From a virus: a stretch of DNA of 22,424 bases. The notes beneath the pieces were generated by a model, which was not told the DNA's origin, made no database searches, and was given only the letters and a program-made list of their open reading frames with translations. Position 1 is the stretch's first letter; the number at the start of each line of letters is the position of its first letter. This document shows positions 3,294 through 22,424 of this stretch, one piece after another. The position numbers and the translations under genes were made by a program. Location: the IMG/VR virus record IMGVR_UViG_3300035698_005368, positions 1-22,424 of that record. The stretch is one strand, 5' to 3'.

Positions 3294-3521
3294 ATGAAGT
3301 CAGACAAAAAAGCCAAAGAATATATTAAAAATAAGAAAATATATCCTTTATTAAACACCGCATATGCAGAAATGTGGGTAGTAGAAGGCTCAACAGGCAT
3401 GTGGGAAATTAGATATGATAAAGAAAAGGACATATACACTTGCAATTGTCCAAATGTTAAAAACGTCAAATGCTGCCACATAAAAAGTATTATACTATGG
3501 AAACAGAACAAAAAAGAATAA
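3294..3521 (+). CDS. SWIM-type zinc-finger protein
   Basis: A 75-residue protein ending in a SWIM finger: CNC (about residues 50-52), ten residues, then CCH read as C-x-H, in the context YTCNCPNVKNVKCCHIKSI. SWIM fingers (CxCx(n)CxH) bind DNA or protein and occur in archaeal and mobile-element proteins. The strand before it (MWEIRYDKEKDIYTC) fits the beta hairpin that normally leads into the finger. It is the first gene after P1 and probably leaderless. A regulatory or recombination-accessory role is inference. Confidence 0.7.
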   Translation: MKSDKKAKEYIKNKKIYPLLNTAYAEMWVVEGSTGMWEIRYDKEKDIYTCNCPNVKNVKCCHIKSIILWKQNKKE

Positions 3522-3538
3522 GAAATAGAAAAACCGTA

Positions 3539-4117
3539 ATGACAACATTTATATGTGGTTATTGTAAACAAAAAACGGTTATGCCATTAAGATTCGCTAA
3601 AAAAAGGCATTTTTGTAGTATTCAATGTACAAATATGTGGAGAAAAGAACTAAAACCACACAACATATTAAATTTAGATGAAGAAAAAATTATAAAATTA
3701 TATAAAGAAGGCTTATCATTAGAAAAAATAGGTTCAATATTTAATACATCAGGACCAACAATAGGAAATAGATTAAGAAAATATGGGATAACAAGAGATG
3801 CAGGATTTAAATCAGGAATAAATAATCCTAAATACAGAGGAGCGCATCAATCCATAAATAGAAAAATAAGAAATAGTCCAGAATATAAGAAATGGCGATT
3901 TGAAGTATATAAAAAAGACAATTTCACCTGTAATTATTGTAGAACGCGTGGTACATATTTACACGCTCATCATATTAATCACCTTAGTAATATAATAATA
4001 AATTTTAATATTGAAAACGATAACCAAATTAAAGAATGTAATGAATTATGGGATTTAAATAATGGAATAACATTATGTACAGATTGTCATATGGAGTTAC
4101 ATAAAAATGAAAAATGA
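3539..4117 (+). CDS. HNH homing-type endonuclease
   Basis: A protein with three visible parts. First, a Cys-rich zinc finger (CGYCKQ ... FCSIQC). Second, a helix-turn-helix-like repeat (EEKIIKLYKEGLSLEKIGSIF, the usual 'modified resolvase' DNA-recognition helix). Third, an HNH nuclease core: WRFEVYKKDNFTCNYC, then HAHHINHL, then NNGITLCTDCH. All catalytic and zinc residues are present. It is a typical freestanding phage HNH homing nuclease. The start is uncertain: ATG 3539 follows the previous stop by 17 bases, while in-frame ATGs at 3497 and 3470 overlap the SWIM gene; none has a good ribosome-binding site. No split host gene is visible around it. Confidence 0.8.
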   Translation: MTTFICGYCKQKTVMPLRFAKKRHFCSIQCTNMWRKELKPHNILNLDEEKIIKLYKEGLSLEKIGSIFNTSGPTIGNRLRKYGITRDAGFKSGINNPKYRGAHQSINRKIRNSPEYKKWRFEVYKKDNFTCNYCRTRGTYLHAHHINHLSNIIINFNIENDNQIKECNELWDLNNGITLCTDCHMELHKNEK

Positions 4118-5553: not shown

Positions 5554-5709
5554 ATGGCAAATAGAGACAAAACAGGACCTAGAAAAGGTTCAACAGGACC
5601 AAGAGATGGTCGAGGGAAAGGAAAAGGACTAGGATTAGGAAAAAGAACAGGACTAAAATTAGGAAAAGGAGTAGGAAAGAAGAAAGGCGGAAAGAAAGGT
5701 AACTGCTAA
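5554..5709 (+). CDS. Gly/Lys-rich basic peptide
   Basis: A 51-residue peptide after a strong AGGAGG, beginning MANRDKTGPRKGSTGPRDGR and continuing as GKGKGLGLGKR-type repeats to a final GKKKGGKKGNC. It is very basic and probably unstructured. The opening is weakly like the MPRGD-x-TGP start of DUF5320-type proteins. Such composition suits binding to nucleic acid or packing with it. A codon bias towards AAA and GGA matches the neighbours, so it does not look foreign. Confidence 0.55.
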   Translation: MANRDKTGPRKGSTGPRDGRGKGKGLGLGKRTGLKLGKGVGKKKGGKKGNC

Positions 5710-5720
5710 ATAAACAATTA

Positions 5721-5745
5721 GGGAGTATTCAAATGAAATATTCCC
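5721..5745 (+). other. RNA hairpin between genes
   Basis: GGGAGTATT (5721-5729) can pair with AATATTCCC (5737-5745) across a seven-base loop, with one G-U pair. It stands 12 bases after the stop of the basic peptide and 22 before the HNH ATG (ribosome-binding site GGAGGA at 5758). It has no clean T-tract, so a classic terminator is unlikely; an RNA-processing or regulatory hairpin is possible. Confidence 0.5.
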
Positions 5746-5767
5746 GTTCATTATTACGGAGGACATA

Positions 5768-6082
5768 ATGGTTAAAACACAAGAAGAATTGGGTCGTAGT
5801 CAAACACCTGCAACAAAACGTAAGATTGCTAAAGCTATGGCAGGAAGTAAAAATCCAGCATATAAAGATGGTAGACGTTCATATAGAGAAAAAACAAAAG
5901 CACCTAAAGGTAGTTTAGTACATCACAAAAACGGGGACAGCAAAGATAATAGACGTAGTAATCTTCAAGTAATATCAAAAGCAAATCGGTCAGCACACGA
6001 AAAGAAACATCATAGAGAAAACAATTTTAAGAAGAGTGGTGGTCGTAAAAAAGTAGCTAGAGGATATAAATCAAAAACTTAA
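5768..6082 (+). CDS. small HNH endonuclease with NUMOD3-like region
   Basis: A 104-residue protein. The N-terminus has TPATKRKIAKAMAGSKNPAY, close to the NUMOD3 DNA-binding repeat of homing nucleases. It is followed by the HNH_3-type core GSLVHHKNGDSKDNRRSNLQ and a final EKKHH. The HH, Asn and His positions are all there. A basic tail follows. ATG 5768 is set by GGAGGA at 5758. Immediately downstream lies the noncoding region that weakly resembles a group I intron core, a known companion of such nucleases. Confidence 0.75.
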   Translation: MVKTQEELGRSQTPATKRKIAKAMAGSKNPAYKDGRRSYREKTKAPKGSLVHHKNGDSKDNRRSNLQVISKANRSAHEKKHHRENNFKKSGGRKKVARGYKSKT

Positions 6083-6090
6083 ATCATACT

Positions 6091-6300
6091 CTCTTTAGAG
6101 ACCGGGGTTAAAATCCCCAAAACATACTTAAATTCGGTGAAGTATCTAATGATACAACGCGACATATAAATGGATAATAACGAACTGGAAAATATATGCT
6201 TATCCCAGCGTTACCTTCGTGCGTTAAGCTACAACCTCTTTAGCATAAGATTCAGGTAGTCCGTCTTTAAGACTTAATATTCACTGAATAATGACACCGA
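6091..6300 (+). ncRNA. possible structured RNA (group I intron-like, uncertain)
   Basis: No gene fits here. Visible stems are: TCTC-TTTA-GAGA; GGGG-TTAAAAT-CCCC at 6102-6116; GTATC-TAAT-GATAC at about 6141-6154; AACG-AA-CTGG pairing with CCAGCGTT (6180-6189 with 6204-6211); GTC/GAC; and TATTC-ACT-GAATA just before P2. The string AAATTCGGTGAA followed by a short hairpin and AACGC resembles the P/P4-P5 region of group I introns such as the Azoarcus tRNA-Ile intron. AAGATTCAGGTAGTCC resembles the S/P7 strand. A convincing P7 partner and P3 pairing are not found, so I call this a structured noncoding stretch with intron resemblance only. Confidence 0.35.
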
Positions 6301-11526: not shown

Positions 11527-12084
11527 ATGATAAATAATGGTAGATTTAAAAAAGGTATGATTCCATGTAATAAAGGTATTAAAGGACAGATACCTTGGAA
11601 TAAAGGAAAAAAGATGTCTTCGGAATCTTGTGAAAAAATGAGTAAAGCCCATAAAGGAGTTAAACTATCATTAAAAACTTGTAAAAGAATGTCAAAAGCC
11701 AAAACAGGAATAAAACTTACACAACAAACAAAAGAAAAACTATCATTACAAAAATTAGGACCACTAAACCCGCAATGGAAAGGTGGTGTAACACCCATTT
11801 TCGATATCATAAGAAGAAGTGATAAATATAAAGTATGGAGAATGTCTGTATTTGAACGAGATAATTTTACATGCCAAATATCTGGGTTATGCATTGGTGG
11901 TGAATTGGAAGCACATCACATTAAGAATTTTGCAAATAATGAAGAGATTAGATTTAAATTAAATAATGGTATTACTATACATAAAGATATACATTCACTA
12001 TTTCATAAAAAATATGGATATAACAATAATACATTAGAACAAATTGAACAATTTAAGGAGGAATATAAAAATGGATATGAGTGA
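11527..12084 (+). CDS. HNH homing endonuclease with NUMOD3 repeats
   Basis: A 185-residue protein. The first half carries repeated NUMOD3-type DNA-binding units (SSESCEKMSKAHKG, SLKTCKRMSKAKTG, TQQTKEKLSLQKLG), then NPQWKGG. The second half is the HNH nuclease: YKVWRMSVFERDNFTCQISG, EAHHIKNF, NNGITIHKDIHSLFHKKYG. All catalytic residues are in place. It lies directly before radA; its last 14 bases overlap radA, and its 3' end contains radA's ribosome-binding site. Homing nucleases often sit beside replication and recombination genes. Confidence 0.8.
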   Translation: MINNGRFKKGMIPCNKGIKGQIPWNKGKKMSSESCEKMSKAHKGVKLSLKTCKRMSKAKTGIKLTQQTKEKLSLQKLGPLNPQWKGGVTPIFDIIRRSDKYKVWRMSVFERDNFTCQISGLCIGGELEAHHIKNFANNEEIRFKLNNGITIHKDIHSLFHKKYGYNNNTLEQIEQFKEEYKNGYE

Positions 12085-13115: not shown

Positions 13116-13601
13116 ATGGAAATAAAATATGTAAAACAAAATAAAGATTTACCAGACTTCACAAAATTAGAAGATGAAGCTGGATATATGGTACGAATTG
13201 GTGAAAGAAGATTAATCAGACCATTCGACATACAACAAGTACGAACAGGTATTAGTTTAAAAGTACCTAAAGGCTACGAATTAGAAATATTAACAATGAA
13301 CAGAATTATTAAAGAAACAGGTATTGGAGTATTAAGCGGTATTGAATCATACCCACCAGGATATGAAGGAGAAATTACAGTTCATCTTAAAAACTTTAAG
13401 CCAACAATGCAAATGTTAGACATAGCAATGCCAATAGCAAGAATGGTTTTAAGAAAAGTAGAAGATGTGTCATTCGTTAGTAGTGACGAAACATTTATTA
13501 AGAAAGAAAATAAAGATAATAGTAAGGAGGACGAAAATGAAAATACAAATAAAAATGATACACCCGGAAGCGATAATCCCGAAAAAAGCAAATCAGACTG
13601 A
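13116..13601 (+). CDS. degenerate dUTPase-fold protein
   Basis: A 161-residue paralogue of the dUTPase encoded just downstream. Shared points: GISLKVPKGYELEI, PPGYEGEITVHLKN and MPIARMVL align with the dUTPase fold. The catalytic motifs are altered. Motif 1 DAGFD is EAGYM; motif 2 R-S-x-S-G is gone (MNRIIKET); motif 3 has a longer loop (IESYPPGYEGE) without the catalytic Asp at its usual place, though the Tyr is kept; motif 5 is missing. The end is a low-complexity Lys/Asn/Asp tail that overlaps the dUTPase start by 65 bases. It is probably inactive as a dUTPase and may serve as a partner subunit, regulator or structural protein. AAGGAGGA precedes ATG. Confidence 0.65.
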   Translation: MEIKYVKQNKDLPDFTKLEDEAGYMVRIGERRLIRPFDIQQVRTGISLKVPKGYELEILTMNRIIKETGIGVLSGIESYPPGYEGEITVHLKNFKPTMQMLDIAMPIARMVLRKVEDVSFVSSDETFIKKENKDNSKEDENENTNKNDTPGSDNPEKSKSD

Positions 13602-13965
13602 TGCAGGATTTGACGTGTTCGTACCAGTAAGAACAATGGTACCACCAAAAAGAACAACATTAGTAAAAACTGGTTTTGCAGTAGCAGTCCCAGAAGGATA
13701 CGAATTACAAGTAAGAAGTAAAAGTGGATTAGCACTTAATTTACATACTGTTGTAGCACAAGGAATTGGAACAATAGATAGTGATTATAGAGGTGAAGTA
13801 GGTATACTATTATGGAATAGGAATAGTATAGGAGTAGAATTCGGAGCAGGTGAAAAAATAGCACAATTAGTACTATGTAAATTACCAGACGCTGAATTTG
13901 AAGAAGTAGAAGAACTAAACGATACCAGCAGAGGAGAAGGTGGTTTCGGGAGCACAGGAAAATGA
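13537..13965 (+). CDS. dut: dUTPase
   Basis: A 142-residue trimeric-type dUTP pyrophosphatase: dUTP to dUMP plus pyrophosphate, keeping uracil out of DNA and feeding dTMP synthesis. All five motifs are seen: DAGFD (22-26), RSKSG (60-64), GTIDSDYRGE (78-87), GEKIAQL (105-111) and RGEGGFGST (132-140). Length is normal. ATG 13537 is chosen because AAGGAGG lies at 13523-13529, inside the previous gene's tail; longer upstream frames give an unrelated basic leader. The RadA-dUTPase-polymerase order suits a replication operon. Confidence 0.92.
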   Translation: MKIQIKMIHPEAIIPKKANQTDAGFDVFVPVRTMVPPKRTTLVKTGFAVAVPEGYELQVRSKSGLALNLHTVVAQGIGTIDSDYRGEVGILLWNRNSIGVEFGAGEKIAQLVLCKLPDAEFEEVEELNDTSRGEGGFGSTGK

Positions 13966-19304: not shown

Positions 19305-20038
19305 AACTAATTAAAATAGAAGAAAAAGGAGATATAAGTCTAGTACCAATTGGAGATGCACACGCAGGCTCAATGGACTTTGACAGAGAAGCATTTGAAA
19401 AACAAATCAAATGGGTAAAAGAAAACAAAAACGTAAGAGTAGTATTAATGGGCGACCTGATTGACGCCGGGCTAAAAAATAGTGTTGGAGCAGGAACCTT
19501 CGACAACGATATGACACCCGAAAACCAAATAGACTATATGATAGATATATTAACTCCTATCAAAAAACAAATATGGTGTATGCTAGCAGGAAACCACGAA
19601 GAACGAATAAGAATGAACACAAGTATAGATGTAACCAAACTAATGGCAAAAGCATTAGGCATACCATATGGAGAATCAACGTGTTTCATCAAAGCAAGAA
19701 TTAAAGAAATTAATTATATTATCTATGCACACCATGGAAGTACAGGGTCATTAACACCAGCAGGAAAACTAAACGCAGTAATCAAATGTGGAAGTTTCGT
19801 AAATGCAGATATAGTATTAATGGGACACGTACATGAATTAATGAACCATAGCACAGAATATTTCAGAGTAGACATAGGAAACAAACAAATAGTAAAAGAA
19901 AAGAAACACTACGTAATAACAGGACACTTCCTGAAATACGGAGGATATGCACAAGCTAAAAATATGGCTCCAGGAAAATTAGGTGTTGCTAAAATTAAAT
20001 TGTTTGGTAAGAAAAAAGACGTGCATATAAGCCTATAA
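19301..20038 (+). CDS. calcineurin-like metallophosphoesterase
   Basis: A 245-residue two-metal phosphoesterase with all the usual blocks: GDAHAG (D19, H21), GDLID (51-55), GNHEER (97-102), HHGS (144) and GHVHE (175-179). These bind Mn/Fe and cut phosphoester bonds. It lacks the capping domain of full Mre11/SbcD, so it is a minimal phage type whose substrate (nucleic acid, nucleotide or protein phosphate) cannot be told. ATGA overlap upstream; its stop shares a base with the next ATG. Confidence 0.85.
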   Translation: MKLIKIEEKGDISLVPIGDAHAGSMDFDREAFEKQIKWVKENKNVRVVLMGDLIDAGLKNSVGAGTFDNDMTPENQIDYMIDILTPIKKQIWCMLAGNHEERIRMNTSIDVTKLMAKALGIPYGESTCFIKARIKEINYIIYAHHGSTGSLTPAGKLNAVIKCGSFVNADIVLMGHVHELMNHSTEYFRVDIGNKQIVKEKKHYVITGHFLKYGGYAQAKNMAPGKLGVAKIKLFGKKKDVHISL

Positions 20039-20196
20039 TGACAACCATTGGAATAAACGATGTTATTTGCCCAATATGTAAAACTGTAGGCAAAATAAAT
20101 AGGTCAAAAGCGTGTAAACGAACATTTATATGTCTTGCATGCGGGCAAAGAGGCGGTTGGAGTTTAATACAAAATCAACTAAATAGAAACATTTAA
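20038..20196 (+). CDS. 52-residue zinc-ribbon protein
   Basis: CPIC and CLAC (about residues 14-17 and 37-40), with an intervening Cys in a basic loop (NRSKACKRTF), make a zinc ribbon. The end GQRGGWSLIQNQLNRNI could be a helix. The ATG overlaps the previous stop by one base. Its final codons lie within the TATA region of promoter P3, so it closes the long P2 operon. Confidence 0.6.
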   Translation: MTTIGINDVICPICKTVGKINRSKACKRTFICLACGQRGGWSLIQNQLNRNI

Positions 20197-20250: not shown

Positions 20251-21942
20251 ATGGACATAAAAAACACTATAAAGGGATATTTATCTCAGGCTGATTGGAG
20301 AGTAAAAGAGAACGCTAACACTGGTTATAGCTTTAGCGGCTTATCATTAAGAGTATCAGAGGACGCATTTGAAGAATATATGCTAGAACACGTATTCTCA
20401 GAAGAAATAAAAGATGCTCACAAAAGCTGTCATATTAAACTACATGATGTTGGTTATCCAACCGTTTATTGTTGTGGTCATGATTTACGAAAACTTTTAG
20501 CTGAGGGTCTTAATGGAGTGCCAGGGAAGATAAATACAAGCGCACCAAAGCACTTAAATTCTGTCATTAACATAATGGTCAACTATTTAGGAATAATGCA
20601 AATGGAAGCAGCTGGAGCGCAAGCATTCTCAAATATGGACACATTATTAGCACCATACATTAAGAAAGATGGACTATCATATGATGAAGTTAAACAAGCA
20701 TTTCAAAACTTCGTATACCACTTAAACATAGCTAATCGTTGGGGGAGTCAAGCACCATTCACAAACATAACATTGGACGCACAATGTCCAGACATGTTCA
20801 AAAATGATAAACCAATCATAGGCAAAGACGTAGCAGACTTTACTTATGGAGATTGTCAAGAACAAATGGATATGATTAATAAAGCAATGTTTGAAATAAT
20901 GATGGAAGGAGACGCAACAGGACAACCCTTCACGTTTCCAATAATCACAGTCAATTTAACAAAAAACTTTGATTGGAACAGCGATATTGCACAAATAATA
21001 TTTAAAGCAACAGGAAAGTATGGAACACCTTATTTTCAAAACTTTCTAAACAGCGACTTAGACCCAACAGACGTTTACAGTATGTGTTGTAGATTACAAA
21101 TAGATAAGAAAGAATTACAAAAACACACAGGCGGGTTGTTTGGAGCTGGAGCAGCTACAGGAAGTATACAAGTAATAACACTAAACCTCCCACGTTTAGC
21201 GTATGAAGCAAAGGGAAGTAAAGAAAAGTATTTTGAGTTAATAAAGAAATATGCGAACATTGCAAAAGTGGCTCACGAAATTAAAAGAGTTTTTATTGAA
21301 GACCAAATGAAAAAAGGCTTATATCCTTATTTCAAAAGATATTTAGGTCATTTTAGAAACCATTTTAGCACGATTGGAGTTCTTGGGGGCAATGAAGCAT
21401 GTCTTAATTTATTAAACAAAGATATTAAAGCACCAGAAGGTAAAGCTTTAATGGTAGAAACATTACAATTTTTAAGAAAAATAATATTAGGATTTCAAGA
21501 AGAAACAGGAAACCTATATAATTTAGAGGCAACACCAGCAGAAAGCACAGTTTTTAAATTCGCAAAATATGATAGAGAACATTGTGAAGGAATAATAACA
21601 TCAGGAACAGAAAGTGCACCCTATTACACTAATAGTACACATATTAGTCCAGATGGAGAAACAGATATTATTGACGCAATAAACCATCAAGATGACTTAC
21701 AAGTATTATATAATAGTGGTACAGTATTACACTTTTATTTAGGTGAAGAAATACCAAAATGGCAAACGTGTAGAGATTTAGTAAAAAGAATAGCAAAAAA
21801 TAGTCATATGCCATATTTTAGTATAACACCAACATTTAGTGTATGTCCAGTATGTGGATATCTTTCAGGAGAACACGCGTATTGTCCAAATGAACACACA
21901 GAAGATGAGTTAAAAGCTTACGGAATAGAGGTTAAAAAATGA
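20251..21942 (+). CDS. nrdD: anaerobic (class III) ribonucleotide reductase, lacking glycyl-radical end
   Basis: A 563-residue class III reductase core. It has WRVKENANTGYSFSGL, AHKSCHIKLHDVG, TVYCCGHDL (C74/C75), PFTNITLD, YSMCCRLQ (C279/C280) and GAATGSIQVITLNLPRLAY, then SITPTFSVCPVCGYLSGEHAYCP. These carry the active-site cysteines and the start of the zinc site (C532, C535, C545). The normal enzyme continues with a fourth zinc Cys and a glycyl-radical loop (R-V-x-G-Y) near the end. Here the protein stops after EHTEDELKAYGIEVKK, so both are missing. The N-terminal ATP-cone is also absent. It should make deoxynucleotides without oxygen, but as written it cannot form its own radical. ATG 20251 follows TTGAGGA. 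Confidence 0.85.
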   Translation: MDIKNTIKGYLSQADWRVKENANTGYSFSGLSLRVSEDAFEEYMLEHVFSEEIKDAHKSCHIKLHDVGYPTVYCCGHDLRKLLAEGLNGVPGKINTSAPKHLNSVINIMVNYLGIMQMEAAGAQAFSNMDTLLAPYIKKDGLSYDEVKQAFQNFVYHLNIANRWGSQAPFTNITLDAQCPDMFKNDKPIIGKDVADFTYGDCQEQMDMINKAMFEIMMEGDATGQPFTFPIITVNLTKNFDWNSDIAQIIFKATGKYGTPYFQNFLNSDLDPTDVYSMCCRLQIDKKELQKHTGGLFGAGAATGSIQVITLNLPRLAYEAKGSKEKYFELIKKYANIAKVAHEIKRVFIEDQMKKGLYPYFKRYLGHFRNHFSTIGVLGGNEACLNLLNKDIKAPEGKALMVETLQFLRKIILGFQEETGNLYNLEATPAESTVFKFAKYDREHCEGIITSGTESAPYYTNSTHISPDGETDIIDAINHQDDLQVLYNSGTVLHFYLGEEIPKWQTCRDLVKRIAKNSHMPYFSITPTFSVCPVCGYLSGEHAYCPNEHTEDELKAYGIEVKK

Positions 21943-22307
21943 AACAAATATTATATTTATTTGTATTCATATGTCTTATTAGTGTTGTAAGCGCTTTACC
22001 AACAGGTGGAACAAGTTCAGCAACATTAGACCCAAATGCTAAATTAATAATGGCTGATGGAATATTAGATAATGAAGCACAATTAGTAATAAATAGTATA
22101 GAAAACAAAGAAGAAACAGGAATATTAATTATAGAAACAATAACAGAAAATAGTATTATATTAAAAACAGTAAAGACTGAATACTTATTTGGAATATTTG
22201 CAAAAAACAGAGAAGTAAAATTTGAAGCATTTAAAACAGGTGAAGTAAAAAGATTAACAACAAAATTCTTATGGGCTGAAAGACGTTTATGGAGCAAAAT
22301 AAAATGA
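21939..22307 (+). CDS. exported protein with signal peptide
   Basis: A 122-residue protein starting at an ATGA overlap with nrdD. The front is a typical signal peptide: MKQ, a hydrophobic core (ILYLFVFICLISVV), then SALPTGG with likely cleavage after Ala. The mature part is Thr/Ile/Asn-rich, with strands (GILIIETITENSIILKTVKT) and a basic end. It matches nothing I know. Its place behind nrdD in the same operon is odd for a secreted protein. Confidence 0.6.
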   Translation: MKQILYLFVFICLISVVSALPTGGTSSATLDPNAKLIMADGILDNEAQLVINSIENKEETGILIIETITENSIILKTVKTEYLFGIFAKNREVKFEAFKTGEVKRLTTKFLWAERRLWSKIK

Positions 22308-22424
22308 AAAAAATAATGTTTACACTGCTTATATTTGCTTTACTCTTATTAACAGCTTGTGGACAACAAGAAACAATTACTAGTGGAACTTTTATAGCGC
22401 CACAAACTGATTGTGGTTGTAATG
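22304..22424 (+). CDS. lipoprotein, N-terminal part (cut by window end)
   Basis: ATG 22304 overlaps the previous stop (ATGA). The product begins MKKIMFTLLIFALLLLTACG, a lipoprotein signal with lipobox L-T-A-C, then GQQETITSGTF and CGCN at the edge. It would be anchored by lipid outside the membrane after cleavage before Cys. Function unknown; the two consecutive exported genes may form a cell-surface or lysis/exclusion unit. Confidence 0.6.
   Translation, partial: MKKIMFTLLIFALLLLTACGQQETITSGTFIAPQTDCGCN

Follow-up and report, generated by a model that had tools for sequence, protein, structure and literature searches.

Class III (anaerobic) ribonucleotide reductase (RNR) is an oxygen-sensitive enzyme that makes DNA precursors. 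A single RNR chain normally carries both the glycyl radical and the cysteine that it targets. In class III chemistry, the barrel receives the glycyl loop close to the finger-loop cysteine (PMC11226230), and motion of the glycyl-radical domain in P. copri NrdD is expected to be mostly rigid-body (PMC11226230); MCCR is one of two finger-loop motifs of the class (PMC9669993). A precedent for a glycyl radical acting in trans is GrcA (YfiD), the autonomous glycyl-radical cofactor of pyruvate formate-lyase, a small separate protein that brings the radical to a large barrel and restores PflB G734A (PMC12338860). Viral RNR polypeptides in pieces are known from Aeh1 (nrdA-a/b) and phiAS4 (nrdD fragments), where the splits are recent insertions or fragmentations (PMC3653736), and a one-chain class II RNR is made as two chains, NrdJa and NrdJb, in P. 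aeruginosa and Thermus phage phiYS40. Finally, the archaeal virus ANMV-1 encodes a 144-aa protein labelled 'anaerobic ribonucleoside triphosphate reductase' (AJP62049; positions 5686-6120 of KP703175.1, our locus L363), which is no more than a stand-alone NrdD glycyl loop preceded by a cysteine-rich segment. The open-access literature that we searched describes RNRs split by introns, inteins or insertions and holds no report of a stand-alone NrdD glycyl subunit (subscription papers were mostly, and preprints wholly, outside this search). A split class III RNR is therefore likely to be undescribed, as far as that literature shows.

The DNA analysed here, called the window (the whole stretch, a virus fragment of 22,424 nt), ends 482 nt after the stop codon of an nrdD gene, an uninterrupted ORF of 563 aa, with the following features:

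20251..21942, + strand: nrdD, read as the large (catalytic) subunit, without ATP-cone or glycyl-radical loop (Pfam NRDD, PRK08270, AlphaFold model)
20470..20472, + strand: C74, conserved first-strand active-site cysteine (alignment; aligned with the YC motif of T. maritima NrdD)
21082..21093, + strand: M278-C279-C280-R281, double-cysteine finger loop receiving the radical (alignment)
21520..21543, + strand: NLEATPAE, residues 424-431, conserved active-site segment (alignment)
21844..21897, + strand: zinc site C532, C535 and C545 with H549 as probable fourth ligand, CPVC...CPNEH (alignment, partner-cysteine complementarity)
21898..21939, + strand: C-terminal tail TEDELKAYGIEVKK, resembling the loop-less relatives L183, L192, L112 and L165
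21939..22307, + strand: next ORF, 122 aa, apparent signal peptide, ATGA overlap with nrdD, no family match
21940..22424, + strand: region where relatives encode a separate glycyl-radical subunit; none is found here before the contig end

Both its sequence family and its barrel fold identify this protein as a class III RNR. The match to Pfam NRDD (E 2.5e-158) covers profile positions 1-531 of 562 and that to PRK08270 positions 99-652 of 684; the protein therefore lacks the ATP-cone and approximately 30 residues at its C-terminus. Identity to cellular PRK08270-type relatives is 45-53%. The AlphaFold model (pLDDT 85.5, pTM 0.86) reaches Z scores of 29-35 against solved NrdD structures, versus ∼18-20 against other RNRs and glycyl-radical enzymes. 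C74 and the MCCR segment are unchanged in an alignment of 29 relatives, which also keep the NLEATPAE segment except at T428 and A430, both variable. Like the class III NrdD proteins of T4, T. maritima and P. copri (PRK08270), the window protein thus has the barrel fold, the active-site cysteines, the double-cysteine finger loop and most of the zinc site, but it stops before the glycyl-radical loop, its C-terminal end being CPVCGYLSGEHAYCPNEHTEDELKAYGIEVKK, and has no ATP-cone. It does not meet the class III criterion of a C-terminal RVxGY loop on the same chain.

The missing loop was not found elsewhere in the record. No RVxGY loop occurs in any frame of 21000-22424, and the six frames of the whole window hold only two matches, which lack context and are put down to chance. 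We also built a profile from 258 loop sequences; at maximum sensitivity, its best E against 803 window ORFs was 0.25, while it recovered the loop of three control loci with E values of 1e-15 to 1e-24. Neither PF01228 nor a radical SAM protein (an nrdG-type activase) was found in the 22.4-kb record. As the record is a fragment that ends 482 nt past the stop, the absence of a partner and of nrdG here does not prove that the virus lacks them. By appearance, the ORF at 21939-22307 is a signal-peptide protein that is not part of the RNR, and the one running from 22289 to the end is a lipoprotein; both assignments are inferred from sequence alone. A first-pass annotation had described a class III RNR without a glycyl-radical domain, with intact active-site cysteines, followed by a signal-peptide protein and a lipoprotein rather than the missing end, and lacking ATP-cone and nrdG. 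All of this held: the first point on NRDD coverage and the absence of a loop in any frame, the second on the invariant C74 and C279/C280, the third by sequence only, and the last for the 22.4-kb fragment, on profile coverage and the lack of a radical SAM protein. It had also proposed searching for a short RVxGY ORF and nrdG, neither of which is found in the record, and aligning homologues, which reveals the same loop-less end in other viruses and in cells.

Indeed, the loop is missing in 26 of the 80 closest cellular relatives (first scan of cellular loci), mostly from Treponema and other Spirochaetota and from rumen Alphaproteobacteria, along with a Margulisbacterium (L089) and a bacterium (L112). 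We scanned 279 genomes from the phylum of a Woesearchaeota MAG (DPANN) at a NrdD threshold of E <= 1e-60; NrdD was present in 60 of them, and the loop was missing in 19 of the 30 best archaeal loci. Among viruses, 17/77 NrdD loci carry no loop at their end (second scan). One locus, L073, is partial, and a RIHGY form of the loop was seen in L087, L103 and L104. Several loop-less relatives have a tail nearly identical to that of the window protein: it is CPHEHSEEELEKFGVEEKEIEVMTK in L183, and begins with CPYDHTNAELNQHGIE in L192, CPYPHTEEELAKFGIE in L112 and CPYPHTEEELKKYGIE in the viral L165. The end of the window NrdD is thus a natural one, falling after the third zinc ligand but short of the radical loop, and common to relatives.

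In these relatives, the loop has a gene of its own. Each of the 19 loop-less archaeal nrdD genes has a small loop-bearing ORF downstream, adjacent or overlapping, of 49-93 codons stop-to-stop and starting between 111 nt before and 123 nt after the nrdD end, with the motif CEVYSR(I/V)VGYFRPVxNWNxGKxxEF. A small loop ORF also follows nearly all bacterial and viral loop-less nrdD genes. The small pieces match NRDD positions ∼525-562, exactly the portion absent from the large pieces; these partners are of NRDD type and not PF01228. The small piece was present in 17 of 19 viral records with a split large subunit, lying ∼480 nt or more downstream in five. In phage L164 (6146-8874), the large subunit, a NrdG-like radical SAM protein and the small subunit are encoded within about 2.8 kb, and the order large nrdD, NrdG-like gene, small gene, in a row, is that of the L164/L166 phage type, a possible candidate for a minimal split class III RNR. 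The cluster in L164 (and L166) also includes a 58-aa ORF. In Treponema-type loci the downstream protein is mostly 165-200 aa long, the loop being joined to a redoxin-like CPNCPPVK domain. Across the Spirochaetota loci L084-L110 and L117, most small glycyl subunits carry such a glutaredoxin/thioredoxin-like domain as a fusion, and one small protein may there bring both the radical and the reductant.

The zinc site links the two chains. The fourth zinc cysteine of intact NrdD precedes the E of EVYSR by five residues, and we followed it in 54 distinct large/small pairs. Where the large chain has this cysteine, the small chain does not (33/33 pairs); in pairs without it on the large chain, it is found on the small one (15/15). 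The difference in the small chain (15/15 versus 0/33) gives a Fisher p of 9e-13, which overstates the independence of the data since the pairs are interrelated. Yet the sister pair L203/L204 shows both states, so the complementarity does not merely reflect a single ancestry. No other evidence here speaks as strongly for a single folded unit made up of the two chains, zinc ligation and docking themselves being inferred. Five pairs carry CPxxH in the large chain, and there the fourth cysteine is absent from the small chain too. The window NrdD belongs to this group (C532, C535, C545, H549). As neither chain of CPxxH pairs provides a fourth cysteine, H549 is likely the fourth ligand, giving a CCCH set in place of the CxxC/CxxH...CxxC of class III NrdD; this is inferred from the alignment and the complementarity, without metal data. 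The first-pass claim that the fourth ligand is missing must hence be corrected: the site is not necessarily short, H549 being a probable replacement. One of the 54 pairs, L188 (G236), has lost the zinc site on both chains (CPxH to DPVH, CP to SP) while the gene pair is intact; its small chain has no cysteine.

We therefore propose that the product of the window gene is very likely the large catalytic subunit of a split class III RNR, with a second polypeptide as the source of the glycyl radical. The true end of the protein, its sharing by relatives, the small gene paired with it in those relatives and the complementary zinc cysteine are demonstrated; docking, activation and activity in trans are inferred. 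In this model, the glycyl-radical loop, fused in textbook NrdD, would form a protein of its own, roughly 45-90 residues long, on which a NrdG-type activase would place the radical. The loop would then enter the barrel of the large subunit beside the C279/C280 finger loop, where a thiyl radical would form ahead of ribonucleotide reduction. A zinc knuckle would hold the junction between the subunits, with its CCCH set within the large chain in the subgroup of the window and a fourth cysteine contributed by the small chain in many archaeal relatives. The double-cysteine finger loop would suit a redoxin-type reductant, as would the Treponema redoxin fusion. The model is supported by loop-less homologues in Spirochaetota, Alphaproteobacteria, Margulisbacteria, DPANN archaea and viruses. 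Against it, the 22.4-kb record holds neither a partner nor nrdG, a secreted-type ORF overlaps the nrdD stop here, where cellular relatives have the partner next door, and the window protein is a long branch whose position relative to split and intact forms the trees leave unresolved. Unlike the Aeh1 and phiAS4 splits, the NrdD break is recurrent, falls at a domain boundary and is found in cells too; the NrdJa/NrdJb pair differs in class, cofactor and break point.

Where the partner of this virus is encoded is less certain. The small gene lies ∼480 nt or more downstream in five viral records, and may thus sit just past the contig end here; we lean slightly towards this explanation. Alternatively, and as a sub-case of the split model, the virus could encode the large subunit only and rely on the small subunit and NrdG of its host, forming a virus-host hybrid. 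In favor of this, DPANN archaea commonly have a split NrdD, and the virus itself is archaeal judging from sequence matches: its RadA scores above the PRK04301 cut-off, with up to about 52% identity to homologues from the Woesearchaeota phylum versus about 28% to haloviruses, and many of the best matches of its PolB are haloarchaeal tailed viruses. A host from the Woesearchaeota phylum is only a possibility suggested by RadA, because no other archaeal phylum was compared. No close viral relatives were found by nrdD alone, PolB or exact DNA. Many virus records also hold one half only, so that viral and cellular halves plausibly mix: in the small-subunit scan (L283-L362), 53/80 viral loci had a stand-alone loop ORF without a nearby NrdD, mostly of 45-100 codons, and 38 of the 39 small-only records searched whole had no NrdD large subunit anywhere. 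Viruses may thus possibly donate the radical half as well, although small-only records may be fragments. Against the hybrid, the viral split-nrdD records mostly contain the small gene themselves, in some cases at a distance that this contig would not cover, and we hold a hybrid to be the less likely option. In a bolder reading, the two-subunit class III RNR would be widespread and its halves exchanged between viruses and hosts, this virus bringing only the catalytic half, completed by a host radical subunit, and dozens of other virus records only the radical half; we hold this to be less likely than not.

In a different explanation, the small loop proteins would not be obligate subunits but GrcA-like spare parts, used on NrdD that oxygen has damaged, and the window gene would depend on one. 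The small-only viral records and the precedent of GrcA for pyruvate formate-lyase speak for it. However, the enzyme served by GrcA has its own loop, whereas the paired large subunits have none to repair; the fourth zinc cysteine complements between the chains; and the small subunit is derived from NrdD and usually encoded next door. We thus consider a spare-part role unlikely. Accordingly, the first-pass suggestion that a small protein encoded elsewhere brings the radical in trans gains comparative support (19/19 archaeal genes, nearly all bacterial and viral ones), and its comparison with GrcA is refined to an obligate second subunit from a neighboring gene.

It could also be argued that the nrdD gene is decaying or was recently truncated and has lost its function, given the missing loop, the lack of an adjacent partner and the long branch. 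But its 563 codons are open, the invariant residues are kept and the NrdD fold is confident, and its tail resembles that of functional-looking relatives up to the stop, without loop remnant downstream. Decay, which the first-pass annotation had left possible, is very unlikely since the gene is intact and L183, L192, L112 and L165 end alike; the same evidence makes a recent truncation improbable. Lastly, an interruption by an intron, intein or frameshift as in T4-type phages, with a second exon further on, could be invoked because interruptions are frequent in phage nrdD genes (PMC3653736) and the window holds three HNH/NUMOD3 ORFs, but is all but excluded, as the terminal residues align with loop-less relatives and not with an intron, and dozens of unrelated genomes show this break, their second piece having its own start codon. 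A frameshift near 21900 in particular is rejected for the lack of a loop in all frames there.

Returning to the split RNR, core trees built without the C-terminus show at least 6-7 changes between split and intact states on well-supported branches. Splitting and/or re-fusion are therefore recurrent and not confined to one clade. The window NrdD forms an unresolved long branch both in FastTree and in a mixture-model tree (which left out L164). If two chains suffice, the radical half could be exchanged, replaced or separately regulated, as GrcA is for pyruvate formate-lyase, and the system would offer a simple two-protein setting in which to study radical docking. If this holds true, annotation misses a short essential subunit, many of these ORFs being of 45-90 codons. 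With viruses carrying either half, nucleotide supply would be a direct point of dependence between virus and host in anaerobic archaea and spirochaetes.

Other ORFs of the window can be mentioned here. Directly upstream of nrdD, positions 20038-20196 encode a 52-aa zinc-ribbon-like protein (CxxC...CxxC) without Pfam match. A dUTPase ORF (13465-13965) is overlapped by another ORF (13116-13601), which has no Pfam match and resembles, by eye, the dUTPase/dCTP deaminase fold. The three HNH/NUMOD3 endonuclease-like ORFs of this 22-kb fragment lie at 3470-4117, 5768-6082 and 11527-12084.
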